Assembly (NCBI RefSeq): GCF_002954225.1
Contig: NZ_PPTH01000018.1
Location: forward strand, 310,001 to 374,000
Origin: Arthrobacter ruber
GTDB taxonomy: Bacteria; Actinomycetota; Actinomycetes; Actinomycetales; Micrococcaceae
Reading direction: 5' to 3'
DNA length: 64,000 nt
Below, piece after piece: positions 49,776 to 64,000 of this stretch. Position 1 is the first letter of the stretch. Every line of letters starts with the position of its first letter. A program made the translations under genes and the position numbers. Under the pieces are notes generated by a model, which ran no database searches, was not told the DNA's origin, and was given only the letters and a program-made list of their open reading frames with translations.

Positions 49776-49951
49776 CGGTTACGGGAACCACTCCGCGCAT
49801 CGCTCCGGGCTGACCGATCGCCGCTTGTACATCCTGATGGGCGAGGCCCTCCATCGAGCGTCCTGACCTGTGGTCGCCCCAGTGCAGTTCGAGAAGACGT
49901 CCTCCAGTGGTGATCGTCCGATGTCCTCAACGGCGTCACCTCCTCACCATC

Positions 49952-49977
49952 CACACGATAATGTCGGTTATCGTGTG
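49952..49977. promoter_or_regulatory. dif-like inverted repeat before the recombinase gene
   Basis: CACACGATAA (49952-49961), six bases TGTCGG, then TTATCGTGTG (49968-49977): a perfect 10-bp inverted repeat with a 6-base centre. The arm-6-arm layout and the CGATAATGT core resemble Xer dif sites. It ends 3 bases before the recombinase ATG, so binding would also block translation initiation or transcription. Confidence 0.6.
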
Positions 49978-49980
49978 ACC

Positions 49981-50901
49981 ATGACCCTCAGAACGCAGGT
50001 AACGGAATATGCCAATGGACTGTGGCATGCCCGAACGCTTGGGGCATGGAAGTCATCGCTTGCCAGGTCGCCGCATACGCTCCGCGCGTACACCCGAGGC
50101 ATCGAACAGTTCTGTCTGTGGCTCGACGATCACGGGTTGGACTTGCTCGGCGTGGAGGGGGTGCACGTGGACGATTACCGGCACACACTCACCGGCGCAC
50201 CCGCCACCGCAGCACAGAAACTGGCCGCGGTTTCAAGCTTCTACCGCTACGCCGTGTCTGCGGGTATCACAACCACCAATCCTGTGGACTTCGTCCGGCG
50301 GCCCACGGTGACTGCCGATTCCACCGCTACACAGGGCCTGACGGAGGACCAGGCGCGCGCCCTGCTGGACGCAGCACGAGCGGACGGCCCTCGGTCCCAC
50401 GCGCTGGTGAGCTTGCTCCTGTTCACCGGGATACGTCTCGGTGAAGCGCTCAGCGCCAACACTTCGGACTACGGGCACGACGCCGGGCACCGGGCGCTGA
50501 TCCTTCAGCGCAGGAGCGGCACCCAGGCCAAGGTCGCCGTTCCGCCTCCCGCCGTTGACGCTCTGACTGCCTACCTCGGGACCACCGGGCGAGAGCTGGT
50601 GGCGGCGGCAGACTCGGGTCCGCCACTTTTCACCACGGCCACAGGCAGGCGCTGGGCACCTTCGGAGGCATTCCGGACTGTGCAGCGGCTGGCCCGCCTC
50701 GCGCGCATCGAAGGCCGGATCAGCCCCCATAACTTGAGACGTGCCTTCGCAAGCATCGCCCTGAACGCAGGGACTACTCTGCATGATCTTCAGGACAGCA
50801 TGGGCCACGCAGATCCACGCACAACGCGCCGGTACGACCGAGCGCGACACGACCCCATGAACTCAGTCGGATACACCGTGGCAAAAGCGCTCGTTCATTG
50901 A
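49981..50901 (+). CDS. Tyrosine recombinase (XerC/D-like integrase)
   Basis: A 306-residue site-specific recombinase. An N-terminal SAM-like core-binding domain (SLARSPHTLRAYTRGIEQFCLWL) is followed by the catalytic domain with Arg in LLFTGIRLGEAL, HNLRRAF (H-x-x-R), GHADPRTTRRYDRA (last His and the nucleophile Tyr). It has no excisionase or phage genes beside it. The ATG 49981 follows the dif-like repeat directly. It marks the start of the less dense, mosaic 14-kb stretch. Confidence 0.9.
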   Translation: MTLRTQVTEYANGLWHARTLGAWKSSLARSPHTLRAYTRGIEQFCLWLDDHGLDLLGVEGVHVDDYRHTLTGAPATAAQKLAAVSSFYRYAVSAGITTTNPVDFVRRPTVTADSTATQGLTEDQARALLDAARADGPRSHALVSLLLFTGIRLGEALSANTSDYGHDAGHRALILQRRSGTQAKVAVPPPAVDALTAYLGTTGRELVAAADSGPPLFTTATGRRWAPSEAFRTVQRLARLARIEGRISPHNLRRAFASIALNAGTTLHDLQDSMGHADPRTTRRYDRARHDPMNSVGYTVAKALVH

Positions 50902-51172
50902 TGGCGTGCCGCTTCTGAACTCGAATCGATCAGGCCGGACCCTGCGTTTCCATATCGACACGCGACGTCGGCGAGCCCGCTCCTGAAATGCGGTTTCACA
51001 CCCCTGAAGTATTTCGCATTCCTCTTACCTGATTACCGGATCATTCACTCTGCGGGCTGCTACCAGCACTCGGTGGAATTTATACCGAATACGTTCGTTT
51101 CAGCAGCACCAGAACTCCGATATTGATTTGGTCAGTCCTTGGTGCCAGGGCGGAGCGCGGGTATCCGTTGGA
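50902..51172. other. Noncoding gap downstream of the recombinase
   Basis: About 270 bases with lower GC than the flanks (runs such as GAATTTATACCGAATACG). No open frame looks coding and no second copy of the dif-like repeat is seen. Confidence 0.6.
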
Positions 51173-52294
51173 CTATTCGCGGCCCCTAGCCCGCGCCTCG
51201 GCCTGCTGCTCGCGTCCGAGCTCCACCAGGCGATCGTCGTCGATCCTGTTGCCCTTGAACTCGATGACGGCGCCCTCCACTTCGTCGACGAAGGCCTTCG
51301 CAGCGCCTACCGCACCGAGCGAGATCTCTTGCTTCGGCGCTTCCGGAACGACGGCGATGCTCGCATCGTCACAACCCTCCGCTCCGACGTCGTCGTGCCT
51401 TGCACGCGCACCGTTCACATGCCGGACGCAGAGCCCGGCGACCTCGCGAGCATGGGCGTGCATCACCGAGTGGGCTGCGCCCTCGATCTCGACGACGTCG
51501 ACCGCGTGGGGGAATACACTGCTCAACTGTGTGACCCACGGGCGTGGACATACCGCGTCGTGCTCGCCGCGGATGACGAGCGTCGACGCGCGCACGCGAG
51601 CGGCCGTCCGCTCGATCGGATAGGACATCATCCGCGGCAGGATCTTGAAGAACCAGCCGAACCCGCACGTCAGGTAGGCGACCACGGCGAGGAGCTTCAC
51701 CCGGAAGGGCTCATGGAAACTCGCCAGCAGGAAACGAAGGGCCTGCACGGGGACGGTGCGGGCCGATGCGTCGATGACAGGACTGATCAGGACGAGAGTG
51801 GTGAGCTCGGGGCGCGCCGCAACGAGATCGGTGCAGATCTGCGTGCCCATCGAATGCCCGACGATCACGGGATCCTCAAGCCCGAGATCGTCGATGGCCT
51901 TGCCGACGAGCTCCGCGAACTGACTGATCGACATGGCGCGGCGTGCGTGCGGCACGCCGCCGAATCCTGGCAGGTCAAGAGCATGTACGGGCCCGAACTG
52001 CATGAGGTGCGGGGCGAGTTGCTCGAAGTAGTGCGAGGACACCCCGATACCCGAGACGAGGATGAACGGCCTGTCGCCCACCTCCCCAACCGAACTCACC
52101 CGTGCCCAGACACCATCGCCCTGAATCCTCCGCACGACGATGTCCGGGCGTGGATCCGACTTCTCACTTCTCGTCACATCCCATTGTCCTATGGAACGCC
52201 GGGAAGTCCGATCGCGGAGTTCGGGGCTGGCGCGCGTCCTGCCGGGTGGGCGTGCGACAGCTTGTCTGGTGAGGACATGCATCCTCCGGTTCAT
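51173..52294 (-). CDS. Alpha/beta hydrolase
   Basis: A hydrolase of up to 373 residues. The oxyanion/lid region reads PFILVSGIGVSSHYFEQLAPHL, the nucleophile elbow is VIVGHSMGTQICTDL (Ser), the acid is in TLVIRGEHDAVCPRPW and the His in EGAAHSVMHAHAREVA. The C-terminal 90 residues after this His are an extension rich in Glu and Arg, with no known fold. The true start is uncertain: ATG 52294 or 52282, the latter having GGAGG close upstream. Substrate unknown; it is not of the RsbQ subgroup. Confidence 0.78.
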   Translation of the reverse strand: MNRRMHVLTRQAVARPPGRTRASPELRDRTSRRSIGQWDVTRSEKSDPRPDIVVRRIQGDGVWARVSSVGEVGDRPFILVSGIGVSSHYFEQLAPHLMQFGPVHALDLPGFGGVPHARRAMSISQFAELVGKAIDDLGLEDPVIVGHSMGTQICTDLVAARPELTTLVLISPVIDASARTVPVQALRFLLASFHEPFRVKLLAVVAYLTCGFGWFFKILPRMMSYPIERTAARVRASTLVIRGEHDAVCPRPWVTQLSSVFPHAVDVVEIEGAAHSVMHAHAREVAGLCVRHVNGARARHDDVGAEGCDDASIAVVPEAPKQEISLGAVGAAKAFVDEVEGAVIEFKGNRIDDDRLVELGREQQAEARARGRE

Positions 52295-52627
52295 CGCTCA
52301 GGAGGTACTAGTAATACGACGAACAAGACACTTCGGGGTGAGACGGCTTTCCGAGACAGTGCATGCCCCGAGTTTCTGCAGTATTTCGCGGGCTCAGGAT
52401 CCTTCAACGGGTGCTGTCGAATCGCGAAGCCACCAGCAGATGTTGCGATACCCCACGTGCGGCCTGCGGGTGGGATACACACCCGGTCCATGGGGTTATC
52501 GCGCGCCTTCGGCAGTACTTAGGATTCGATCAAGTACAAGTACTCTGCATTCTCGAGCGCGAGACGGGATCACCTCACCGCCGCCATGAGCTCCGCCAGT
52601 ATGGGCTTGGTTTCACTTTCCCTGCGG
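52295..52627. other. Noncoding gap between the hydrolase and GGDEF-EAL genes
   Basis: 333 bases with no convincing frame, ribosome binding site or known RNA. It contains the start region of the hydrolase gene on one side and the 3' end of the c-di-GMP gene on the other. Confidence 0.55.
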
Positions 52628-54496
52628 TCACAAGGTGGGAACTGGCGATGAGCCTTCCATCACCTCATGATTCTCCATAGCGGTATCAAGGTCGCTAATG
52701 AGGGCGTCCACGGCGTCTTCGGGGAGCGGTTGCAGGACCACAGGTGAGCTTGGATTCGAGGTGTCATCCTGGTCCGCGATCCATCGTGTGACGCTCTCAG
52801 CGGTGAGGGGCTTGCTGTAGTGGTAGCCCTGGGCGAGGTCGCAACCGAGCGTAAGCAGCGTGGATCGTTGGTGATCGGTCTCGACTCCTTCGGCGACGGC
52901 TCTGATGCCCACGGCGTGGGCTAGTTGGATACAGCTCGAGACGATGGCGCTGTCACCGTCATTGCTGCCCAGTCCGCTGACGAAGGACCGGTCGATCTTG
53001 AGTTCATCGATAGGGAAGTCTTTGAGGTAGGTCAGGCTCGCGTACCCGGTTCCAAAGTCATCGATTGCCAGCCCGACGCCCATCGCTTTCAGGGTTGTGA
53101 GTACCTTGAGGGCCACCGCTGGGCTTTCCATAAGCGCTGTCTCAGTGATTTCCAGTGTCAGAAGGTGCGGGTCGAAGTCATGCCGGGTCAGGGTGGTCGC
53201 AACGGTGTCGACGAGGTGCGGATCGAGGAGTTGACGGGTGGAGAGGTTCACCGCGACCCCGACGGGAGCGCACCCCGGTGTTCCGGGATTCCACAGTCTG
53301 CCTTGCTGTACCGCTTCCTCGAGAACCCAGGCGCCCAGTGCTCGGATAAGCCCGGATTCTTCGGCAAGGTCGATGAAGTCGATGGGTTGCAGGAGCCCTC
53401 GCGTTGGGTGTTCCCAACGCACCAGGGCCTCGACGCCGTTGATGACGTTGGTAGCGATGTCCACCCGTGGCTGGTAGTGCACGCGCAGCTGCCCGGTTCT
53501 GATGCCATGACGGAGTTCGCCGAGCAGACGCATTCTGTTAGCGGCCGGGTCGCCTTGGGAGGGGTCGTGCACATCCCAGATATTGCGCCCCCGGGCTTTC
53601 GCCCGGTACATGGCAATGTCTGCGTGGCGCAGCAGCTGAGTCCCATCCGTGCCGTCGCTGTCGGTGAGGGCGATGCCGATGCTGGCCGAACAGATGATTT
53701 CCAGGCCTTCGATCACCAGAGACCTGTTCACGGTTTCGAGCAGCCGCTCGGCCAGCGCAGTCGCGTCCGACAGGGTAGAAACATGCTCGACGACGACGAA
53801 CTCGTCGCCGGAGAGCCGGGCGACGGTGCCTGTCGACCGCACAGCTGAGGAGAGCCGCTGCGCAACAATGGTGAGCAGCTCGTCGCCTGCGTTGTGGCCG
53901 AGACTGTCGTTGACCGCTTTGAAGTGATCGAGATCAACGAACAGGACGGCCACTTCCTTACCAGAGGGACTTTCCGCGAGTTCACGGGTGAGGATGGAGG
54001 CCAAGCCGGCGCGGTTCGGCAACCCGGTCAGTGAGTCGTGAAGCGCCAGGTGCTGCAGACCGGCCTCGGCACGAAGGCTCCTCGCCTCGGACTCCTCTGC
54101 GCGCCTGCGAGCAGCAACGAGTTCCAGTTCGTGCTTTCGGCGTTCATGGGCACTGAAGATGATGACTCGGATCTCGGTGCCGCCGTCCGGGCCGGGAGCA
54201 CTGACGGCGGTGAGCAATGCGGCTTTACGCTTTCCTGTTGCGTCGATGATCTCCAGTGACACCTCGGACACGGACCCGGCGAGTTGCATACGAGGGACAC
54301 TGTTCGTCGCGTGGAGGAGCCGGTCCCCGACCGGCAGCAGCTGAGGAAGCGGCATGCCGAGGACATCGCTGCTCCTGTATCCCGTCCAGGTCAGGAACGT
54401 GTCATTGACCGCGGTGATCGTCCATGTGTCATCAGTGAGCAAGTAGCCGCAGGGCGCCTGCTGGTACAGCCGCTCGTAGTCTGTCTCGCCGGTCAC
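52628..54496 (-). CDS. PAS-GGDEF-EAL cyclic di-GMP enzyme
   Basis: A 622-residue cytoplasmic protein with a PAS domain (about 7-115, YERLYQQAPCGYLLTDDTW), a short coiled-coil (118-148), a GGDEF domain (148-312) with SGDEF at 229-233, and an EAL domain (325-575) with EAL at 356-358, ETALMES, DDFGTGYASLTYLK and AVAEGVET. SGDEF is a tolerated variant of the cyclase signature, and the EAL metal residues are intact, so both synthesis and hydrolysis are possible. No RxxD inhibitory site precedes SGDEF. Its GTG overlaps the stop of the RsbQ-like gene (GTGA): the hydrolase probably feeds a signal to the PAS domain. Confidence 0.92.
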   Translation of the reverse strand: MTGETDYERLYQQAPCGYLLTDDTWTITAVNDTFLTWTGYRSSDVLGMPLPQLLPVGDRLLHATNSVPRMQLAGSVSEVSLEIIDATGKRKAALLTAVSAPGPDGGTEIRVIIFSAHERRKHELELVAARRRAEESEARSLRAEAGLQHLALHDSLTGLPNRAGLASILTRELAESPSGKEVAVLFVDLDHFKAVNDSLGHNAGDELLTIVAQRLSSAVRSTGTVARLSGDEFVVVEHVSTLSDATALAERLLETVNRSLVIEGLEIICSASIGIALTDSDGTDGTQLLRHADIAMYRAKARGRNIWDVHDPSQGDPAANRMRLLGELRHGIRTGQLRVHYQPRVDIATNVINGVEALVRWEHPTRGLLQPIDFIDLAEESGLIRALGAWVLEEAVQQGRLWNPGTPGCAPVGVAVNLSTRQLLDPHLVDTVATTLTRHDFDPHLLTLEITETALMESPAVALKVLTTLKAMGVGLAIDDFGTGYASLTYLKDFPIDELKIDRSFVSGLGSNDGDSAIVSSCIQLAHAVGIRAVAEGVETDHQRSTLLTLGCDLAQGYHYSKPLTAESVTRWIADQDDTSNPSSPVVLQPLPEDAVDALISDLDTAMENHEVMEGSSPVPTL

Positions 54497-55320
54497 GAGG
54501 GATCCGACTGCAGGTACTGCAGGATGGCCCGTGCCGTCTCTTCCGGGGCGCTGGCCTGGGGCACATGGCCGGTGGCTTTGAGCCCGACGAGCGTGCTTCC
54601 CGCCAGCTGATCATGGAGGTAGCGGCCTACTTCCGGCGGCGCGAGCAGATCTTCGGAGCACTGAAGGATTAGCGCCGGAACGCTTACGTCCTTCAGATCT
54701 GCGCGGATGTCCGAGAGGAAGGTGACGCGGGCAAAATTGCGGGCCGTGTCGGGGTTCGTGCGGCAGAAACTTGCCTCGAGCTCCCCGGTCAACTCGGGCG
54801 CGCCAGGGTTACCCATCACGATCGGGGCGAGAGCGGCCGCCCAGGCGAAGTAGTTGCTGTCGAGCGATTCCAGGAGCTCATGGATGTCCTCCTGCGTGAA
54901 GCCACCAACATAACTTTCCGACGGATCATTGATATACGACGCCGACGGCGCCACCAGGATCAGCCGACGAAATGTCTCGGGGTTCGCTACCGCAGCCTTG
55001 ATCGCCATCATCGCCGCAACACTGTGAGCCACAAGAACCACGTCCCGGAGCTCGAGCGCCTCGCACACAGCGAGCAGATCCGCGACATAACCGTCGAGGG
55101 TGGAATACCTTCCCGGCTCATAGAAAGCGAGGTCGGACTGGCCCGATCCCATATGGTCGAACGACACCACTCGAAACCGGTCCTCGAAGAAGGGGACGAC
55201 CCGGTGCCACATGTTCTGGTCGCAGCCGAACCCGTGGGCGAACAGCACCACAGGACCATCCGGCCGGCCGCCCACGGTGACGTTATGCCGGTCGATGACG
55301 CTCAAGGTATCAACGCTCAA
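54493..55320 (-). CDS. rsbQ: RsbQ-type alpha/beta hydrolase (KAI2/D14-like signalling hydrolase)
   Basis: A 275-residue hydrolase that follows Bacillus subtilis RsbQ segment by segment: FAHGFGCDQNMWHRVVPFF, DHMGSGQSDL, RYSTLDGYVADLLAVCEAL, APSASYINDPSESYVGGF, and the triad S100 (AHSVA), D224 (CSEDLLA), H252 (TGHVPQ). In B. subtilis RsbQ supplies an unknown small signal to the PAS domain of the phosphatase RsbP. Here the partner is a PAS-GGDEF-EAL protein. The start is TTG 55320 after an AGGAGG site; the next in-frame codons upstream lack one. Confidence 0.88.
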   Translation of the reverse strand: MSVDTLSVIDRHNVTVGGRPDGPVVLFAHGFGCDQNMWHRVVPFFEDRFRVVSFDHMGSGQSDLAFYEPGRYSTLDGYVADLLAVCEALELRDVVLVAHSVAAMMAIKAAVANPETFRRLILVAPSASYINDPSESYVGGFTQEDIHELLESLDSNYFAWAAALAPIVMGNPGAPELTGELEASFCRTNPDTARNFARVTFLSDIRADLKDVSVPALILQCSEDLLAPPEVGRYLHDQLAGSTLVGLKATGHVPQASAPEETARAILQYLQSDPS

Positions 55321-55382
55321 AACTGGCGCTCCTCCTGACTCGGTGAGATAGGCAGCACAACAGAAGGCACCGCTACTGGTTA

Positions 55383-55403
55383 CTATCGGCAACCACCCGA
55401 TAG
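55383..55403. promoter_or_regulatory. 7-bp inverted repeat upstream of the RsbQ-like gene
   Basis: CTATCGG (55383-55389) and CCGATAG (55397-55403), a perfect inverted repeat with a 7-base spacer, lie 62-83 bases upstream of the rsbQ-like start codon where an operator would be expected. No regulator can be named. Confidence 0.35.
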
Positions 55404-55802
55404 CCGTCAGCGAAACTGAACCACCCAGGGAACGAGCTGATGAAACCCGAAAAGCCGCTGAGAATCCCATCCAACCGCGGACAACCTCGACCGATCAATG
55501 CATCGTCGCATCTCGTATTCACGCCAGATTACTCTGTACCGCAAAGGCGACCTCCGACCCGATCGCCAGCAGCGCCTCGACAAGGTACTACGGGCTTGAA
55601 ACATGTCCCCATCAGTTCGACGTTTCCAGCAGCGCACCGACCGGAACCAGCGTCCGTCCGGGTCCACACCACATCACCCGGCCAGAAGCGACGAAGAGAG
55701 AACTGCGGGGAAGCGACCCACATGAAGTCGAGTGTGGAGAGTGAAGGCGAGGGTGGAGGTTGAACCACCCGTTGGCCGAGCTGTCCGCTCGAGGAGGGTG
55801 TT
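55404..55802. other. Noncoding stretch
   Basis: About 400 bases between the RsbQ-like locus and the next acetyltransferase gene. Open frames here are Arg/Pro-rich in both directions, lack ribosome binding sites and match nothing known. No terminator is clear. Confidence 0.55.
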
Positions 55803-56480
55803 CTAGTGAGTCATTTGGGCGGTGAGGGCCTGGTACTCGGGGTGGTCCGCGAGGAATGAGAAGGCCATCGGGCACTGCGGGATGAGGCTCAGGCGTCGTT
55901 TGTGCGCATTGAGCACGATGTGGCGCATCAGGGTCATATCCATGCCTTGATCGCGGAAGACAGGGTGCTCGACCCCGTCGGTCAGCACTATTCGCCTCCC
56001 TTGCATCGTGTACTTGACGTGCACGGCGAGGTGGCCGTCGATGAGCAGTTCGAACCGTCCGTACAAAGGGTTGTCGCGGAACGCCTCCCTGAGCTGGAAC
56101 ACAGGAGCGCGATCGACCGCCTGCCGCTCCCGGATGTCGAGTTCCCCGGCGATCATCTCATAGCACTCGATCGCCCCGGTGGGCGGGTAATCCTTGTCCA
56201 GGAGCAGGTATGCACGGTTCGCCAGGATCCGCAGGTGTCTTGTCGACAGGCCCCTGATGTCATCAGCGGACAGGGATTCCACGGCAAGGTCGGCGCCCTG
56301 ACCGTGGGGCGTAGCGCCCGCCTGGGCAACACGACGGTCGGTAAAGGGGCCGGAAGAGGAGCCCTGGAGGGGATTGGCAAGGGGGTCGATGCGCGGCACG
56401 GCGCTATCAGATACATCGAGGTTGAGGGACGAGGTGGGCCGCGTGAGGTCGGGCCGGGCAGGGTTCACGAGTTCGGTCAT
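55803..56480 (-). CDS. Protein with a YidJ/GNAT-like C-terminal acetyltransferase domain
   Basis: A 225-residue protein. The N-terminal half is low complexity (Ser/Ala/Pro), then a segment LSTRHLRILANRAYLLLD, and a C-terminal domain RFELLIDGHLAVHVKYTMQGRRIVLTDGVEHPVFRDQGMDMTLMRHIVLNAHKRRLSLIPQCPMAFSFLADHPEYQ. The latter matches the small GCN5-related fold (YidJ-like) with its conserved CP-x-n-HPEY ending. The catalytic role is unclear. ATG 56480 follows AGGAAC. Confidence 0.78.
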   Translation of the reverse strand: MTELVNPARPDLTRPTSSLNLDVSDSAVPRIDPLANPLQGSSSGPFTDRRVAQAGATPHGQGADLAVESLSADDIRGLSTRHLRILANRAYLLLDKDYPPTGAIECYEMIAGELDIRERQAVDRAPVFQLREAFRDNPLYGRFELLIDGHLAVHVKYTMQGRRIVLTDGVEHPVFRDQGMDMTLMRHIVLNAHKRRLSLIPQCPMAFSFLADHPEYQALTAQMTH

Positions 56481-56727
56481 GACTGTTCCTGTGTTTGTCA
56501 GAAACCTGGCCTGTGGCTGGACCGCGGTGTCTGATGAGCCTAACGGGAGTAGACCTGAAAGGACAGTAGGCCCGTTCGACGGCATCACAACATCACCACA
56601 TCATCCGCCACTGTTTCACCACATCCGGGGCCACAACCGGGGCCAGTAGCTGATCCCCCGAAGGAGAATGCCTGAAATCTAGGGCAACGCGGCGCGATCC
56701 GGCCCGACGCGCCAACAATTCGACAGC

Positions 56728-57731
56728 TATCAGGAGAGTCGTGCGCCCATCCTGTTGTGCGTTCTTCGACTGGCGCAAGGGTTCGCCGTCGGCGGCGAAT
56801 GGGGAAGGGCGGTGATCATCGCGGTCGAGAACGCACCCAAGGGCAGGCGAGGTTTCTACGGGTCCTGGCCCCAGATCGGCGTGTCCTGTGGGCTCCTGCT
56901 CGGCACCGTCGCTGTTGCAGCCGCAGCGGCAATTTCCGGCGACCAGTTCGAGACCTGGGGGTGGCATGTGCCGTTCCTCCTCAGCGTCATCCTGGCCGCG
57001 GTCGGGCTCTACATCCGCCTCAATGCCGCTGAGAGCCCCGAGTTCCTCGCCGAGAAGGCGAAGATGGAAAAGAACAACGTCCAGCAGAAGGCCCCCTTGA
57101 GGGTGCTCCTCGCCCATCACCGCAAGCCGCTATTGATCACGATCTTCGGTCGGTTCGCGGAGGCAGGCAATTACTACCTGTTCACCGTCTTCGTCCTCTC
57201 CTACGTCACCACCTCGCTCGAGGTCCCCCGTCAGTACGGGCTCACGGCCGTGATGATCGGCTCGGTATTGAACATCATCATGATCCCCGTCTTCGGTCGC
57301 TTCTCGGACAGGATCGGCCGCAAGATGACGTTCTTCTCGGCGGGACGGCGATCATCATCACGGCGTGGCCGATCTTCGAGCTCATCCAAACGGGCGAGCA
57401 GTGGGCGATCATCCTCGGTATCGCCCTGTTCCTCGCCCTCGGACACGCACTCGTCTACGCGCCACTACCGGCCCTCTACTGTGAACTGTTCCCCACCGCC
57501 ATCCGGTACTCGGGCATCTCCATCGGCTACCAGATGCCCTCCATCCTGCTAGCCGGATTCATGGCCGCCCTGGCTGGCGCGCTGGTCCTATGGACCGGTG
57601 GGACACACTTCGTTGTCCTGATCATCATCGTGAGCACAGCGATCGCCATGCTCTCCATCTCCTTCGCCAAGGAAACCAAAGATGTGGACTTGTCCAACGT
57701 CGACCAAAAGGAACCAGCCACCACCAGCTAG
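56728..57731 (+). pseudogene. MFS (MHS-family) transporter, 5'-truncated and frameshifted
   Basis: The reading begins at LLCVLRLAQGFAVGGEWGRAVII, a motif normally located about 100 residues into a metabolite/H+ symporter, so the first helices are missing. It continues through SDRIGRKMTFFSAG, where one base is lost near 57341; the frame that restores the protein then reads TAIIITAWPIFELIQTGEQWA to the normal end KETKDVDL. The two halves are in different frames. The gene is not functional unless a sequencing error hit the G run. Confidence 0.88.
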
Positions 57732-57787
57732 TACCAGCAACACCTGCTCGGGTGCACGCCAATGCACGCTTCCAACGATAAAATGAC

Positions 57788-57824
57788 GGCCGCCGCCGAA
57801 AGCTCCTGGCTTCCCGCGGCGGCC
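57788..57824 (+). terminator. Hairpin downstream of the MFS remnant
   Basis: GGCCGCCGC (57788-57796) and GCGGCGGCC (57816-57824) form a perfect 9-bp stem with a 19-base loop, 57 bases after the transporter stop. It may be the old terminator of the transporter gene. Confidence 0.5.
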
Positions 57825-58084
57825 ACACTTTCCTCAAGCGGCCACTCCTATGGGAACGCTTTGCTGCGTTATCTTCCGACTAGGTGCGGCGATTCGCGTC
57901 AATATCCTGGTTGCAAACAGTCCTCAGGTTATCGGTGTCGGAAAGCCGACTGGTCTTCTGGGCCGAGCCCATTTGATTACCACAGTGATGTACGAGGTGA
58001 GCTCAGATGTGGACGAACAAGGGGAACCAAGCAGTGGTCCTTGCCTTGCTCCGGCTGGTGGTCCCGTAGGGAGCCGCGCAGGGT
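57825..58084. other. Noncoding stretch between gene remnants
   Basis: About 260 bases with short, unrelated open frames and no ribosome binding site. It separates the transporter remnant from the response-regulator remnant. Confidence 0.5.
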
Positions 58085-58159
58085 TCAGGAGACGAATTTG
58101 TACCCCACACCGCGGACGGCGATGATATGGCGTGGCGTCGTGGGGTCGGCGTCACCCGG
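58085..58159 (-). pseudogene. C-terminal remnant of an OmpR/PhoB-family response regulator
   Basis: The minus strand encodes GDADPTTPRHIIAVRGVGYKF followed by VS and a stop. RHI-x-A/T-V-R-G-V-G-Y-x-F is the classic end of a winged-helix response regulator. Upstream the frame is closed by a stop after 24 codons, and no more of the gene is found in other frames before the next gene, so only the 3' tip survived a rearrangement. Confidence 0.85.
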
Positions 58160-58176
58160 TCATAGGGCAGGCAGCG

Positions 58177-58446
58177 TCATAATAGTTCGTCTTCGAGGGC
58201 TTGGCGTGCCTCTGGGTCAACCGGGCCGAAGAGGATCGCGGCGTCGGCGAGGCTTTGTATCTGCGGGCCGGTGGACCGCCGCTCCATGCCGGAACTCACT
58301 GTCCACGTCTCCAGCACGTTCTTACCCACCCGGTGCTCTATGGTCAGATCCGGCAAAGCATCTTCCAGGCGTGCATAACAGTCACGGGCTTCGCTCTCGG
58401 TGTCAAAGGTAAACGACACCCGATGCGACAATCCAAGAAGCGGCAT
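58177..58446 (-). CDS. Small acidic protein of unknown function
   Basis: An 89-residue protein starting MPLLGLSHRVSFTFDTESEA and ending DPEARQALEDELL. It is acidic and mixed alpha/beta in appearance, with no cysteine pair or membrane segment. ATG 58446 has a weak AAGG upstream. No family is recognised. Confidence 0.55.
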   Translation of the reverse strand: MPLLGLSHRVSFTFDTESEARDCYARLEDALPDLTIEHRVGKNVLETWTVSSGMERRSTGPQIQSLADAAILFGPVDPEARQALEDELL

Positions 58447-58586
58447 GCACCTTAGTGTTCCACCGGCAAGCAGACAGTGAACATATGCTTTGCAACCCAA
58501 ACCCGGCAGCGCCTTCATCAGTACACGGTGGTAGTGAGACCACGGCCCACCGGCCGCGGGCCTGCACCAGGTCACTGAGCGTTCTG

Positions 58587-58820
58587 TTAGGTCGCTTCCG
58601 GCGCCCTGGTGTCCCACGCGGTGACCGTGGATCCGTCTGTGATGACTGCGAAGTCCTCGCATATGGTCGTTGCCCTGCTGACGGCATCCTTGGGGATCCA
58701 GTTCTGCAACTCGATCGTCCCCTCGGCCATGTCGATGGCTTTCGCATACGTCGATTGCTTCTCGCGATTCGCGTCTGTGAACGCTGCGCAGGAGGACAGC
58801 GTCACCATTGACACCAGGTG
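58587..58820 (-). CDS. Possible small lipoprotein, N-terminus uncertain
   Basis: The frame encodes LVSMVTLSSCAAFTDANREK, which ends a lipobox (L-S-S-C), then a 60-residue secreted-looking domain ending WDTRAPEAT. A normal signal peptide would start with Met-Arg/Lys and a longer hydrophobic core, but upstream codons are His- and Arg-rich and no good start is seen. It may be a decayed gene or use an unusual start; the upstream limit given is approximate. Confidence 0.4.
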   Translation of the reverse strand, partial: HLVSMVTLSSCAAFTDANREKQSTYAKAIDMAEGTIELQNWIPKDAVSRATTICEDFAVITDGSTVTAWDTRAPEAT

Positions 58821-58937
58821 ACACCACCGGTGACGGACATGCGGACAAAGGACGGGACGGACGTGCTGTTCACTGGAGAAGCTCCTTATGAGGATGATGG
58901 CACTTCTCACTCTCATCCACATCACGAACCAATACAT

Positions 58938-59412
58938 CGCCCCAGAGCCGAGCCGCCCTCCTACCCTGGTCGCAGCACGGGCCGCGCATCACCCTCCAAG
59001 CCCTCGCCCAGAACGTGAGCGGGACGATCCGTCTACTCATTTCCTGAATTGAGATAACCCCGGAGGCGTATCGCATCACACGCTGATGGCAGAGTGCTCC
59101 TGCGGAAAGGATCGAGGTAGATCGACGAAAGGCAACCCTCATGCACACCGATGCCGTAGGCAACGCAAAGTCGTGGGAACTGCGTCTTCCAAACTGGGCG
59201 AAGGGCAGGTTTCAGGTGAGCTCGCGAGTTCGTCCGATTGATGATGGATGGCAAAAGCTCGACGTCAATGCGTCCTGGACGACGTCAGCCTTAGTTCCGT
59301 CCGGCAACCGGACCAGGCGCACGTAGTGGGTTTTTCAAACGACCAAGGTCCTGACAGTCGATGGGCACACATGCATGACGAGGTTGCCTTCCCAGTGACC
59401 TACCTAGGTTCG
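58938..59412. other. Mostly noncoding stretch with one weak frame
   Basis: 475 bases downstream of the Clp-N/SRPBCC gene. A plus-strand frame 59141-59326 (61 residues, MHTDAVGNAKSWELRLPNWA onward) has a GAAAGG sequence before its ATG and a protein-like first half, but an Arg/Thr-rich end and no known relatives; it may be a gene fragment. Nothing else stands out. Confidence 0.4.
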
Positions 59413-60468
59413 CTATTCAGTATGACCGTGGCGGAACGTACGGCTGATGGCGTTGCTGATCTGGAAGAGTCTGATCCATATCAGGAACCGCTGGAGCGGG
59501 TGCAGGACTGGGCTGAGGATGGACCGCCAACCCTGGTGTGTGGACCAGGCCATGGTGGTGCTGAGCTGGGTCCCGCCTTTGGTGGGAGCGAGATCGAAGA
59601 TCATGGTGATGGGAAGCCTGGTGTCCACGTCGGGGTAGGTGAAGCGCCACGCAACGTGATTGCCGTGTTCAGCCTGCAGGAGCTCGAGTGTCCGCCGACG
59701 GAATTTCTCGTGCACCTTCAGTGGCCTGCCGTCCGGGTGGGTGGTCCGTGCGTGTGCCATCCACACACCACCTGCCGGTCCTGCTCCATCAGCGGGCTGT
59801 GTGCCCTTGGCATGCGTAGGGGCGAGATCCGCGCCAGTGGTGAAGCCGTCGATAGCGCCGATGGCCGGTTCCCATTCCGGCACCCGGGCAGGATCGGACA
59901 GCAACGCCCAGACCTCATCGACCGGTGCCGGGATGAACGACGCATTGACCCCCCGAAGCTCACCCCGCCGACGCGTCGGGGCGACCAAAGCGATTGGCGC
60001 CGGCGCCGGCGTTCGATCGAGTTCGGCCAGGACCGCCGATGGTGTTGTGCCCAACCCACCTAGGAGTTCCCTGATCAGCCCACTGGGTTCGTCCAGCAGT
60101 TCACGCAACACAGCGTCAGCGTCTGCCGTCCTGCCTTTCTTGCCGGCCCGCTCGATGAGTTTCAGGGCACGCTTTGACCATTCGTACCCGCCGGTTTCAT
60201 GGAACACGATGTCCCCCGAAGGCGGAAGGGAGGCCGTGATTCCAAGGGATGCTATTTGTTTCTTTTGGTAATCCTCCACGGCAGCGCGGGCGCTTCCGAT
60301 AGTGATGCCCAGTTCGCGAAGCGCCCGACCCGCGGGCTGGTCACTGAGCACCAACGCGAGGAACAGGTCCTCGAGATCCGCTTCCCGCAAGCCCCTCCGG
60401 GAAGCTTCCTCCATCGCTGTGAGCGAGAGGGACTGGCTCGTGGCTGCAAATCGGGTGAATCTGCTCAT
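59413..60468 (-). CDS. Clp N-terminal-domain/SRPBCC fusion protein
   Basis: A 351-residue protein. Residues ~1-145 form two Clp-N repeats (FAATSQSLSLTAMEEASRRG; GGYEWSKRALKLIERAGKKG), the substrate/adaptor-binding fold found at the start of ClpA/ClpC but here without any AAA+ ATPase domain. Residues ~170-340 form an SRPBCC (START/polyketide-cyclase-like) ligand-binding domain (VNASFIPAPVDEVWALLSDPARVPEWEP). The ATG overlaps the stop of the upstream HTH gene (ATGA). A role as ligand-dependent partner of the repressor is inferred. Confidence 0.85.
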   Translation of the reverse strand: MSRFTRFAATSQSLSLTAMEEASRRGLREADLEDLFLALVLSDQPAGRALRELGITIGSARAAVEDYQKKQIASLGITASLPPSGDIVFHETGGYEWSKRALKLIERAGKKGRTADADAVLRELLDEPSGLIRELLGGLGTTPSAVLAELDRTPAPAPIALVAPTRRRGELRGVNASFIPAPVDEVWALLSDPARVPEWEPAIGAIDGFTTGADLAPTHAKGTQPADGAGPAGGVWMAHARTTHPDGRPLKVHEKFRRRTLELLQAEHGNHVAWRFTYPDVDTRLPITMIFDLAPTKGGTQLSTTMAWSTHQGWRSILSPVLHPLQRFLIWIRLFQISNAISRTFRHGHTE

Positions 60469-60710
60469 GCTCGCCTCCTGGGGCCGAGGATCGAAGGATC
60501 AATGCGCTTGGAGTACTTCTTGTGCACGGCCTGGCGGGTGACCCCGAGAGCATCAGCAATCTGCTGCCAACTCATCCCGGCCCGCAAAGCGGCCTCGACC
60601 TGACGCAATTCCAACGAGTCCGCCAGAACCCGCAGCGACGCCACGGCCCGTAGTCCAGCCTGCGGATCCGTTGTATCCGCCGCGGCAACCGCTACCTGTG
60701 ATGACTCCAC
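60465..60710 (-). CDS. Small helix-turn-helix repressor partner of the Clp-N/SRPBCC protein
   Basis: An 81-residue protein ending with a helix-turn-helix: LRAGMSWQQIADALGVTRQAVHKKYSKRI. Two palindromes CAACCTAGGTTG lie just upstream of its GTG start, the first only 5 bases away, which suggests a leaderless or near-leaderless transcript repressed by the protein itself. Co-translation with the downstream Clp-N/SRPBCC gene follows from the 4-base overlap. Confidence 0.85.
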   Translation of the reverse strand: MESSQVAVAAADTTDPQAGLRAVASLRVLADSLELRQVEAALRAGMSWQQIADALGVTRQAVHKKYSKRIDPSILGPRRRA

Positions 60711-60715
60711 GTTGT

Positions 60716-60755
60716 CAACCTAGGTTGCTGCCGACAGTTCTGTCAACCTAGGTTG
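60716..60755. promoter_or_regulatory. Twin CAACCTAGGTTG palindromes (likely autoregulatory operator)
   Basis: The perfect 12-bp palindrome CAACCTAGGTTG occurs at 60716-60727 and 60744-60755, centres 28 bp apart, each preceded by GT (GTCAACCTAGGTTG). It sits directly upstream of the small HTH gene. A homodimeric HTH protein would bind each. Confidence 0.7.
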
Positions 60756-60883
60756 CTCATGAGTGGCGCACTGATCTGGACCCGAACGCTCAATGACCTT
60801 TACGGACACGGCCCCGCCGTGACGGGTTGCCCCTAGGTACAGGTCCTTTCGGTGTCGCGAAAATTTAAGGCTTTACGAGACAC

Positions 60884-61092
60884 GTGCACGGGCCGAGCGC
60901 CGAACGTGCACTCCCCCGCGTTTACAGGCCGGCCGGTGTCTTGGAAACTCGTCTCGCTGTATTTCGTCTGCAGCACAGCGAGCCGGCCTCCTGACCACGG
61001 TAATAGTGAAAACTGATCGCGGATCCGGTGTGGCTCTCTGTCCACTTGACGCAGTCCTTGGGCTGCTGTCCTTCACATGACCTGTCCACCGG
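60884..61092 (+). ncRNA. Candidate IS110 bridge RNA region
   Basis: Upstream of the IS110 transposase this noncoding stretch holds three nested hairpins visible by eye: GTGCACG/CGTGCAC (60884-60890/60905-60911); CTCGCTGT/ACAGCGAG (60953-60960/60975-60982) closed by GGCCGG/CCGGCC (60931-60936/60983-60988); and CCGGTG/CACCGG (61025-61030/61087-61092) around an inner GACGCAG/CTGC-T-GTC stem with internal loops of 17 and 16 bases. A 5' stem-loop plus two loop-bearing stems is the layout of IS110/IS621 bridge RNAs. No folding or covariance test was done, and the limits are approximate. Confidence 0.45.
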
Positions 61093-61180
61093 CCCGCGAT
61101 CGCTTGACGTGCTAACGGGTATGGCTTGATAGGAGCCTGATCAGATCCCTTTACCGTATTGCCTGCTCGTCCTGGCTACG

Positions 61181-61196
61181 TGGAGACCCGTCTCCA
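61181..61196. repeat. 7-bp inverted repeat before the transposase start
   Basis: TGGAGAC-CC-GTCTCCA, a perfect inverted repeat, ends 13 bases before the transposase ATG. It could limit read-through translation from outside or bind the transposase. Confidence 0.5.
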
Positions 61197-61209
61197 TCGA
61201 AAGGCAGTC

Positions 61210-62430
61210 ATGTCAGATGCTGGAACGCAAGAACCTCGTGTTGTGGTGGGAATCGACACACACTCGGACACTCACCACGTCGCCGTCGTCACTGAATACG
61301 GGAAGCCCCTGGCTGACCAGGGATTTCCAACGACAGCGGCAGGACACCGGGAAGCCTTCACCTTCATTACAGGGTTCGGGCTAGTCCTGCAGGTCGGGAT
61401 GGAGGGCACTGGCACCTACGGAGCAGCACTCACGAAAATCCTGCAGGGCAAAGGAATGCAGGTCATCGAGGTGAACCGTCCGAATCGTCAGCAGCGCCGG
61501 CTCAAGGGCAAGACCGACTCTCTGGACGCCTACCGCGCCGCCCACTCCGTCATTGCGGGCATGAGTACCGCGGTCCCGAAAGCCAAGGACGGCCCCGTTG
61601 AGTGTCTACGTGTCCTCCGGGCATCTCGGGGTTCCGCGATTAAGTCGCGGAATGCGACGATCAATCAGATCAAGGGCCTGTTGGTCTCTGCACCAGAGGC
61701 TCTGCGGTCCAAGTACCAAGGCCTGACAACGGGGACCATGATCGAGATAATGGTCCGGTCTCGGCCCTCCGGGCACCTGGCGGACCCCTCCTACGTGACA
61801 GCACGAGTGTTGAAGGCACTGGCCGTCCGATACCAGCACCTGAGCGCTGAGATCGAGGACGTGAATGCGCAGCTGCAGGACATCTCGGAGTCCTACGCGC
61901 CGATGCTGCAGCAATTGACCGGCGTCGGCACGGATGTCGCTTCCCAGCTACTCGTCACGTTCGGCGACAACCAAGAACGAGTGGGAAACGAAGCCCAATT
62001 TGCAGCACTGACAGGTGCAGCCCCCGTTCCCGCCTCGTCAGGCAAAACAAGCCGTCACAGGCTGAGCCGTGGCGGCGACAGGCAAGCCAACTGCGCACTG
62101 CACCACATCGTGCTCGTGCGCATGAACATCCACCGGAAGACAAAGGACTACGTCACCAAACGGACCGAGGAAGGCAAGAGTAAGCGGGAGATCATACGGT
62201 GTCTCAAGCGCTACGTTGCCCGGGAGGTCTACCGTCAGATCACCCATCCGGTCCCGGCACCACCAGTCCTCGATTTACGCCCGCTCCGCCACTCACTCGG
62301 GATGACCTTGCAGCAGGCAGCCACGGATCTCCAAACGTGGCCCTCTACAATCTCACGCCTCGAGCGCGGCAAGATGCGTGATGATGAGCTCCTGGACCGA
62401 TACCGAACCGGGTTGCATCAACGAGCATGA
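61210..62430 (+). CDS. IS110-family transposase with a C-terminal XRE-like helix-turn-helix
   Basis: A 406-residue DEDD recombinase. The RuvC-like domain has D16 in VVGIDTHSD, E65 in GMEGTGTYG, and D103/D106 in KTDSLDAYRAA. The Tnp20 domain carries LTGVGTDVASQLLVTFGD and the serine region APVPASSGKTSRHRLSRGGDRQAN (S276 or S277 is the likely nucleophile). After the usual end, residues ~355-395 add a helix-turn-helix (LGMTLQQAATDLQTWPSTISRLERG) not present in typical IS110 enzymes. Confidence 0.9.
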   Translation: MSDAGTQEPRVVVGIDTHSDTHHVAVVTEYGKPLADQGFPTTAAGHREAFTFITGFGLVLQVGMEGTGTYGAALTKILQGKGMQVIEVNRPNRQQRRLKGKTDSLDAYRAAHSVIAGMSTAVPKAKDGPVECLRVLRASRGSAIKSRNATINQIKGLLVSAPEALRSKYQGLTTGTMIEIMVRSRPSGHLADPSYVTARVLKALAVRYQHLSAEIEDVNAQLQDISESYAPMLQQLTGVGTDVASQLLVTFGDNQERVGNEAQFAALTGAAPVPASSGKTSRHRLSRGGDRQANCALHHIVLVRMNIHRKTKDYVTKRTEEGKSKREIIRCLKRYVAREVYRQITHPVPAPPVLDLRPLRHSLGMTLQQAATDLQTWPSTISRLERGKMRDDELLDRYRTGLHQRA

Positions 62431-62534
62431 TTGGTCACCTATTTTCTGGTGTTTGAGTTCATGGTGGAGCGCTACGTTTGAGAATCGGCGAACACCAGGA
62501 AAGCACTTCGAACACTGGGTCTCCGTAGGTGATC

Positions 62535-62993
62535 ATGCTGAACTTAGTCATGCCGCGTTCACGCCTAGGTGTACTGGTCTTCATGGCCGTTGTCACGACC
62601 ATGCTTACTGGGTGCCAGTCGCCCGCGGAACGTACGCTGAACGATATTCAGTTCGAGGCACGTTCCGGTCACGACTCCACTGGTGAGCTGACATGGATCG
62701 CCGACCACCCAGTCAGGTGGAGGATGGAGCTAAGAAACGGCGAGGACACCGTGATGATCGGTCCGCCGTGCGGCGCCATTCAGGCACAGGCCGACGTCAC
62801 GTCCACCGAGATACGCGTCGACATGAATCGCGCGGCTATCGCCGCCATTGCTTGTGAAGAGCCAGTGGCCAGCATGGACCGGTGGGTCCATACCTTCATC
62901 GGTGAGCCCATCACCTACACCTGGGACGAGGACGTGCTCACGATGACCAACAACAACGGAAGCCTCACCTTCCGACGAGCAGAAACGACGTAA
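62535..62993 (+). CDS. Small lipoprotein
   Basis: A 152-residue exported protein. The signal peptide RSRLGVLVFMAVVTTMLTGC ends in the lipobox L-T-G-C, so the mature protein is lipid-anchored after ~125 residues remain. The mature part (LTWIADHPVRWRMELRNGEDTVMIGPPCGAIQAQADVTS and a second Cys in IACEEP) resembles META/HslJ-like lipoproteins, with two cysteines that may pair. ATG 62535 has AGGTGAT upstream; an internal ATG at 62550 is also possible. Confidence 0.75.
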   Translation: MLNLVMPRSRLGVLVFMAVVTTMLTGCQSPAERTLNDIQFEARSGHDSTGELTWIADHPVRWRMELRNGEDTVMIGPPCGAIQAQADVTSTEIRVDMNRAAIAAIACEEPVASMDRWVHTFIGEPITYTWDEDVLTMTNNNGSLTFRRAETT

Positions 62994-63566
62994 GCCAACC
63001 TCCGCAATGTCGACTGGTCCAGGTTTGACAGTTATAGGAGCGTCCTGTGCACGGCACAAGCTCCCTACGCTCCGCTGCTTGTCCCGCACACACCTGGACA
63101 GTAGGAACCAGCGGCCCACCCGCACCCACCACCTCACCGACACTAGGCAGATCGCCTCGAGCGAGCGGTAGGCGTGCACAGCCTCCTACCAGCGTGATCG
63201 TGAACAGCACGAGCTGGTCGATCCAGCGTGGTCGATGGGGCTATCGGCGGCATTGGAGGCCGTGAAGATGAGGTCGACCGTAACTGCATGTTGGTCATCC
63301 ACCTGTGGCCAGATGGAGCCCGAAGGGTGGAGCTCAACGCCGTCCACCTATGGGTGAGCTCCGGCGCCCTCGTGGTCTCTGGACGGCTGTGCAGGCGCAA
63401 GACGCTCTACATGCGCTGATTTGTAGAAATATAGATCTATCGAGATCTGTAGCGCGTGGTTGGAGATGGACGGCGCGTGGCCGTTAGCCGATTTGCTTAC
63501 AGACGATGTGCGATCATCTGGTCAACTCAGCACGTCTCGTACGCCCTACAACTGGGGGTGGCGACT
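62994..63566. other. Noncoding stretch
   Basis: 573 bases between the lipoprotein gene and the DUF1349 gene. Short frames (for example a 63-codon plus-strand frame at 63228) lack ribosome binding sites. A palindromic AGATCT-ATCG-AGATCT lies near 63432 and the DNA there is AT-richer. No gene, RNA or repeat of note is supported. Confidence 0.5.
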
Positions 63567-64000
63567 CTAGGCGTGTTCAGGGTGCAGCGTCGCATCTGCA
63601 TCGGTTTCAATCCACCCGGTGAACGTGGTCGCGAGGTGAGCCCGAGTGGGAGAGGCACAGAATGGGCCTGCCGCGGCAGCCGCGGTTTCATCCAGAGGGG
63701 CGACACGGATGAGCCGGAAAGGCTCATCTCCAGCGCGGGCTCTGATGGTGACGGCATTACCGGCCCTGCTAAGCCGCACTGTGACTTCCCGGTTAATCCA
63801 CTCGGGGACAGGTGCCACTGACCAGTCGGAGACCCCATGTGTGACGACGGCACCAACCTGTGGGATGCCGTCGGACACCTCCACGCCGGCTTTGATCCAC
63901 ACAGATTCCGAGACGTGCAGATAGATCCCTGCCTGGTCGAACTGCTCGGTGTAATCCAAAAGGAATGAGACCTCTACCGCGCCTTCTACGGGGAACGGTG
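63567..64000 (-). CDS. DUF1349 protein, C-terminal part (runs off the right edge)
   Basis: The frame is open to the window end. It reads VEGAVEVSFLLDYTEQFDQAGIYLHVSESVWIKAGVE and then VGAVVTHGVSDWS, the signature of DUF1349/concanavalin-like proteins (the yeast REE1-type, 'regulator of enolase' family), with the FDQAG and WIKAGVE motifs. The partial protein has at least 143 residues here. Function in bacteria unknown; a carbohydrate-binding fold is expected. Confidence 0.85.
   Translation of the reverse strand, partial: PFPVEGAVEVSFLLDYTEQFDQAGIYLHVSESVWIKAGVEVSDGIPQVGAVVTHGVSDWSVAPVPEWINREVTVRLSRAGNAVTIRARAGDEPFRLIRVAPLDETAAAAAGPFCASPTRAHLATTFTGWIETDADATLHPEHA

Follow-up and report, generated by a model that had tools for sequence, protein, structure and literature searches.

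Hydrolases of the RsbQ type are the bacterial kin of the plant strigolactone and karrikin receptors, and their signal has long been sought. Butenolide perception by RsbQ was reportedly described by Melville et al. in 2024. The closest described systems are those surveyed by Nadezhdin, Brody and Price in 2011, who listed 45 adjacent RsbQ/RsbP-PAS pairs with PPM, kinase or diguanylate-cyclase outputs; three of the diguanylate-cyclase outputs carry an EAL domain, and the kinase outputs were assigned to Gram-negatives (PMC3183031). In Bacillus subtilis, RsbQ directly contacts the PAS domain of RsbP through Phe55 of the PAS F-alpha helix, and its catalytic triad is required; F55A loses RsbQ binding, and alanine mutants at Phe55 and Tyr59 reduce or abolish binding and abolish signalling (PMC3183031). 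Members of this PAS class are without a DIT motif and have a long helical linker following the PAS domain. No ligand was found in RsbP-PAS, and two models were offered, in which either the hydrolase product is delivered to PAS or the occupied hydrolase itself touches PAS (PMC3183031). The module was restated in a 2025 eLife paper on RsbU, in which an AlphaFold model places RsbQ at the PAS-linker interface (PMC12143880).

The window, the whole stretch of 64,000 nucleotides from Arthrobacter ruber analysed here, contains a gene pair that is read, with a probability of roughly 0.8, as an RsbQ/RsbP-PAS sensing module wired to c-di-GMP turnover, breakdown being the more likely conserved output. The hydrolase fold, catalytic triad, PAS class and gene order are those of RsbQ-RsbP in the B. 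subtilis sigma-B energy-stress pathway, but the output of RsbP is a PPM phosphatase, whereas that of the window protein is GGDEF-EAL, with the PPM domain absent. The diguanylate-cyclase module of 2011 likewise has an RsbQ homologue directly upstream, an RsbP-class PAS as the first domain, a GGDEF output and no DIT motif; the window differs from it in having Leu and Asn at the equivalents of Phe55 and Tyr59, and Ala at that of Pro86. The first-pass annotation had proposed an RsbQ/RsbP-PAS signal module in which c-di-GMP replaces the sigma-B output, and this part is supported by a profile match and by the conserved pairing described below; its novelty does not stand, since the arrangement was published in 2011 (PMC3183031). 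The text of that paper, figures aside, does not contain the name Arthrobacter, nor is the Micrococcales clade of the window named there (PMC3183031). The window pair is a further member of the published module, in which the new part is an altered residue at the presumed contact. The features of the locus are as follows.

55330–55336, minus strand: ribosome-binding site AGGAGGA, 9 bases 5' of the hydrolase TTG start (sequence)
54493–55320, minus strand: gene for the 275-aa RsbQ-type alpha/beta hydrolase, read from a TTG codon at 55320 (ORF and translation)
55021–55023, minus strand: codon of catalytic Ser100 of the hydrolase (sequence; invariant in the survey)
54844–54846, minus strand: codon of hydrolase lid residue Ala159, Gly in RsbQ (sequence comparison)
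54649–54651, minus strand: codon of catalytic Asp224 of the hydrolase (sequence; invariant in the survey)
54565–54567, minus strand: codon of catalytic His252 of the hydrolase (sequence; invariant in the survey)
54493–54496, minus strand: GTGA overlap of the hydrolase stop TGA and the PAS-gene start GTG (sequence)
52628–54496, minus strand: PAS-GGDEF-EAL protein, 622 aa (Pfam; AF2 model, mean pLDDT 83.5)
54152–54487, minus strand: RsbP-class PAS domain, residues 4–115 (profile from PPM- and kinase-linked members only; AF2 model)
54278–54331, minus strand: PAS F-alpha helix, residues 56–73, with L61 (RsbP F55), N65 (Y59) and P68 (P62)
54041–54151, minus strand: long linker helix from PAS to GGDEF, residues 116–152 (AF2 model)
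53582–54046, minus strand: GGDEF domain, motif SGDEF (Pfam and motif reading)
52808–53518, minus strand: EAL domain with complete EAL, N, E, DDFGTGYASL, K, E and Q motifs

Re-reading in the hydrolase frame returned the coordinates and the triad numbering (Ser100, Asp224 and His252) of the first-pass annotation unchanged. The GTGA overlap of the hydrolase with the PAS-GGDEF-EAL gene that it described lies at 54496–54493, and all three domains of the downstream product are detected by Pfam (PAS_9, E 1.7e-7; GGDEF, E 3.2e-46; EAL, E 1e-72).

A search of the hydrolase against PDB sequences gave RsbQ (1wom) as the best match (E 6.7e-82 over residues 7–271), followed in rank by Olei00960, KAI2 and D14. 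The AlphaFold model of the hydrolase (pLDDT 94) also superposes best on RsbQ (TM 0.95, 1.2 Å) and has helices 143–155 and 157–169 around lid residue 159; with the triad intact, the RsbQ-like identity originally suggested for this protein holds. In preparing the structure models, one alignment row that came from a plasmid record was left out, as were the plasmid-derived sequences in the alignment for the hydrolase. The plant receptors D14, KAI2 and DAD2 have the same fold (TM about 0.9) and the same catalytic triad as the window hydrolase, to which they are 32–39% identical by structural alignment, but their partner is an F-box protein, whereas the putative partner here is a PAS protein; it is by predicted fold and triad alone that the window hydrolase may be likened to the D14/KAI2 butenolide receptors. 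It is the single RsbQ-class hydrolase of its genome, the next best hydrolase matching only at E 1e-13, and the five less closely related hydrolase loci found there (L002–L006) are without an RsbP-type PAS neighbour. A second alpha/beta hydrolase, a distant relative, is encoded on the same strand past the EAL gene (51173–52294) and is absent from the homologous loci examined.

The PAS profile was built solely from phosphatase- and kinase-linked partners beside RsbQ homologues, without GGDEF-linked members, to avoid circularity. The window PAS domain is the sole match to this profile in the genome (E 1.4e-28, with no other at E<=10), and comparison with the RsbP-class profile using hhalign gives E 5.7e-39; a single-sequence PDB search with the same domain produced no clear relative. 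Since the genome has one RsbQ-class hydrolase and one RsbP-class PAS domain, and these are encoded in overlapping genes, a chance pairing is ruled out. The DIT motif is absent from the end of the PAS domain, where the window protein reads SAHERRKHELEL, and the helical linker that follows comprises 37 residues (116–152 in the AF2 model), the class minimum for a coiled-coil or helical linker being 21 residues. At the class positions C10, L13, L48, Q53, F55, C56, Y59, E72 and P86 the window has C, L, L, R, L, H, N, E and A, respectively; with the RsbP numbering set by residue spacing and without the RsbP sequence itself, six of the nine fit the class residue or the class consensus, and positions 55, 59 and 86 differ (F55 to L61, Y59 to N65 and P86 to A92). 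Because Phe55 and Tyr59 are replaced and Pro86 is Ala, exact equivalence of the window PAS domain to that of RsbP is not assured.

RsbQ-like hydrolases were gathered from GTDB genome contigs, relatives, Actinomycetota genomes, genomes of the Noviherbaspirillum phylum and plasmids, with matches in 33 of 397 Actinomycetota genomes and in 20 of 399 genomes of the Noviherbaspirillum phylum. An RsbP-type PAS gene lies directly downstream in 141 of 152 distinct hydrolases and is lacking in 11. The outputs of the 141 pairs comprise 82 PPM, 32 histidine kinase (called from simple motifs and sequence reading) and 23 GGDEF, 18 of these with EAL detected; four are cut by a contig end. The adjacency is found in Actinomycetota, Pseudomonadota, Bacteroidota, Bacillota, Acidobacteriota and Gemmatimonadota, and the Ser-Asp-His triad is invariant across the surveyed hydrolases. 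The pairing of hydrolase and PAS gene is a conserved module, and the search for RsbQ homologues beside PAS-GGDEF or PAS-EAL genes that the first-pass annotation had suggested shows it to recur in these 141 loci, including the 23 with GGDEF; a lack of pairing in other genomes, which that annotation named as a refutation, is thus not what is seen. A GGDEF pair is present in Paenibacillus cellulosilyticus (L162, NZ_CP054613.1), where the gene table of the record lists no gene. Probably mislabelled, the record WNZI01000003.1 (L023) carries the name Vibrio cholerae strain 35D and falls with the Arthrobacter genus of the window; at this locus and at L012 the PAS and GGDEF parts lie in different reading frames.

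In the hydrolase tree the window falls in an almost wholly Micrococcales clade of 26 members (SH-aLRT 95), of which 16 are paired with GGDEF-EAL proteins and four with kinases, five are solo and one is cut off. The kinase pairs are in Gram-positive Arthrobacter (L029, L031, L062 and L164, one of them on plasmid pA40H1) and extend the 2011 statement placing kinase outputs in Gram-negatives (PMC3183031). The five solo hydrolases, from Pseudarthrobacter and Arthrobacter (L025–L028 and L163), have no PAS neighbour, and an RsbP-class PAS domain is absent genome-wide in three of the four solo-hydrolase genomes searched; these proteins may be orphaned receptors, and the hydrolase may therefore also act alone. 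Such solo hydrolases within the clade, together with the altered Phe55 and Tyr59 positions, are what could be expected if the contact had been lost or rewired in this clade and the hydrolase were mainly a housekeeping esterase co-transcribed with a c-di-GMP gene. This reading is improbable, as 16 of the 26 members of the clade keep the adjacent pair with GGDEF-EAL and four more keep it with a kinase, and the window PAS domain still matches the RsbP class.

PAS position 55 is aromatic in 82 of 82 PPM pairs and in 25 of 32 kinase pairs, is Leu or Met in 16 of 16 GGDEF-EAL pairs of the window clade and is Val in all four of its kinase pairs; position 59 is His in all PPM pairs and Asn in the window. 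Leu or Met at position 55 was considered as a mark of c-di-GMP output and rejected, given that proteobacterial and Paenibacillus GGDEF pairs keep Tyr or Phe in four of six cases (Tyr in L151; Phe in L152, L154 and L162; Leu in L153 and L160). Since these other GGDEF pairs mostly have Tyr or Phe and the Micrococcales kinase pairs have Val, the change at position 55 tracks the hydrolase clade and not the output. Where PAS position 55 is aromatic, lid residue 159 of the hydrolase is Gly in 113 of 114 pairs, and where it is aliphatic, the lid residue is Ala, Val or Ser in 24 of 27; the hydrolase columns that co-vary with position 55 are 159, 208, 205, 106 and 226, on four independent comparisons and without significance. 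The co-change of residue 159 and position 55 looks like compensation at a contact and is suggestive, but with only four independent comparisons it counts as a lead. To the published module this analysis adds the variation at position 55 in the window clade, the lid change in the partner hydrolases and the contrast, described below, between intact EAL motifs and GGDEF motifs that decay in some members.

PAS folds often bind small ligands, and the triad required in B. subtilis is conserved in the window hydrolase, both of which are in keeping with the mechanism of the first-pass annotation, in which the hydrolase product enters the PAS pocket as a ligand. That mechanism, Model 1 of the 2011 paper, is regarded as tentative, with odds somewhat short of even, given that no ligand was found in RsbP-PAS, that B. 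subtilis needs direct protein contact (PMC3183031) and that the 2025 AlphaFold model has RsbQ at the PAS-linker interface (PMC12143880). Model 2 assigns the receptor role to the hydrolase, whose occupied or covalently modified form would bind PAS and alter the PAS shape in the manner of D14 and KAI2. These receptors are the nearest fold relatives after RsbQ, and the PAS F-alpha helix and the hydrolase lid residue are altered in the same clade; although the latter observation is the non-significant co-change described above, the receptor reading comes close to an even chance.

In the main reading of the pair, the hydrolase would bind, and probably slowly hydrolyse, a small lipophilic compound, and in this state it would contact PAS in a PAS-GGDEF-EAL dimer; the resulting change would travel through the 37-residue linker helix and shift the balance of c-di-GMP synthesis and breakdown. 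Direct hydrolase-PAS contact, the need for the triad and the direction of the signal would carry over from B. subtilis, and the hydrolase would probably control the c-di-GMP enzyme of the window pair. A further and more doubtful proposal is that the contact has been re-cut in the Micrococcales, from an aromatic to a small aliphatic residue in the PAS F-alpha helix and from glycine to a larger residue in the lid, giving an insulated pair, perhaps for another compound, that would drive c-di-GMP turnover, with re-coupling to kinases in some Arthrobacter and loss of the PAS partner in others. Natural variation at the presumed contact allows swap experiments that map how such receptors relay their signal.

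The GGDEF domain of the window protein has the motif SGDEF, keeps the metal-site Asp and lacks the RxxD inhibitory site (RSTG instead), and the catalytic motif set of its EAL domain is complete; as judged by motif, a bifunctional GGDEF-EAL enzyme appears to be encoded. A precedent is MbaA of Vibrio cholerae, a bifunctional SGDEF/EVL protein under a separate binding protein (PMC8967002), so SGDEF enzymes can be active. The NspS-MbaA system resembles the window pair, in which control is presumed, in joining a separate ligand-binding protein to a bifunctional c-di-GMP enzyme, but it consists of a periplasmic binding protein and a membrane receptor, and its sensor is unrelated (PMC8967002). Among the clade homologues the EAL catalytic motifs are intact as far as they can be read, and some GGDEF sites are degraded (GEDSF in L066, metal-site Asp to Gly in L014 and L066, and SADEF in L017); since EAL sites stay intact while GGDEF sites degrade in some clade members, breakdown of c-di-GMP by EAL is the likelier conserved output. 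A c-di-GMP network is present in the window genome, which encodes six GGDEF and six EAL domains. A pair controlling c-di-GMP would be easy to read out, by biofilm or with a reporter, and its host, as a soil actinobacterium, could encounter butenolides from plants.

Arthrobacter MN05-02 carries, on a mobilizable plasmid, a hydrolase that is 76% identical to that of the window and has the same partner. Past a tyrosine integrase gene (49870–50901) the GC content of the window drops from about 0.70 to about 0.61, and a hydrolase match is present in eight of 38 other genomes of the genus. From the plasmid homologue, the GC fall after the integrase and this patchy occurrence, the pair fits an accessory, mobile trait. 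Seven neighbouring genes were looked for at the homologous loci, which for the most part come with only 1.5–5 kb of flank, and none recurs there. The region 49870–64000, which includes the gene pair, is a possible genomic island. It also contains an MFS transporter fragment (56755–57552) that matches only the middle of the family and is probably a broken gene, and an ORF (59413–60468) in which a Clp_N domain is fused to a polyketide-cyclase/AHSA1-like (SRPBCC) domain.
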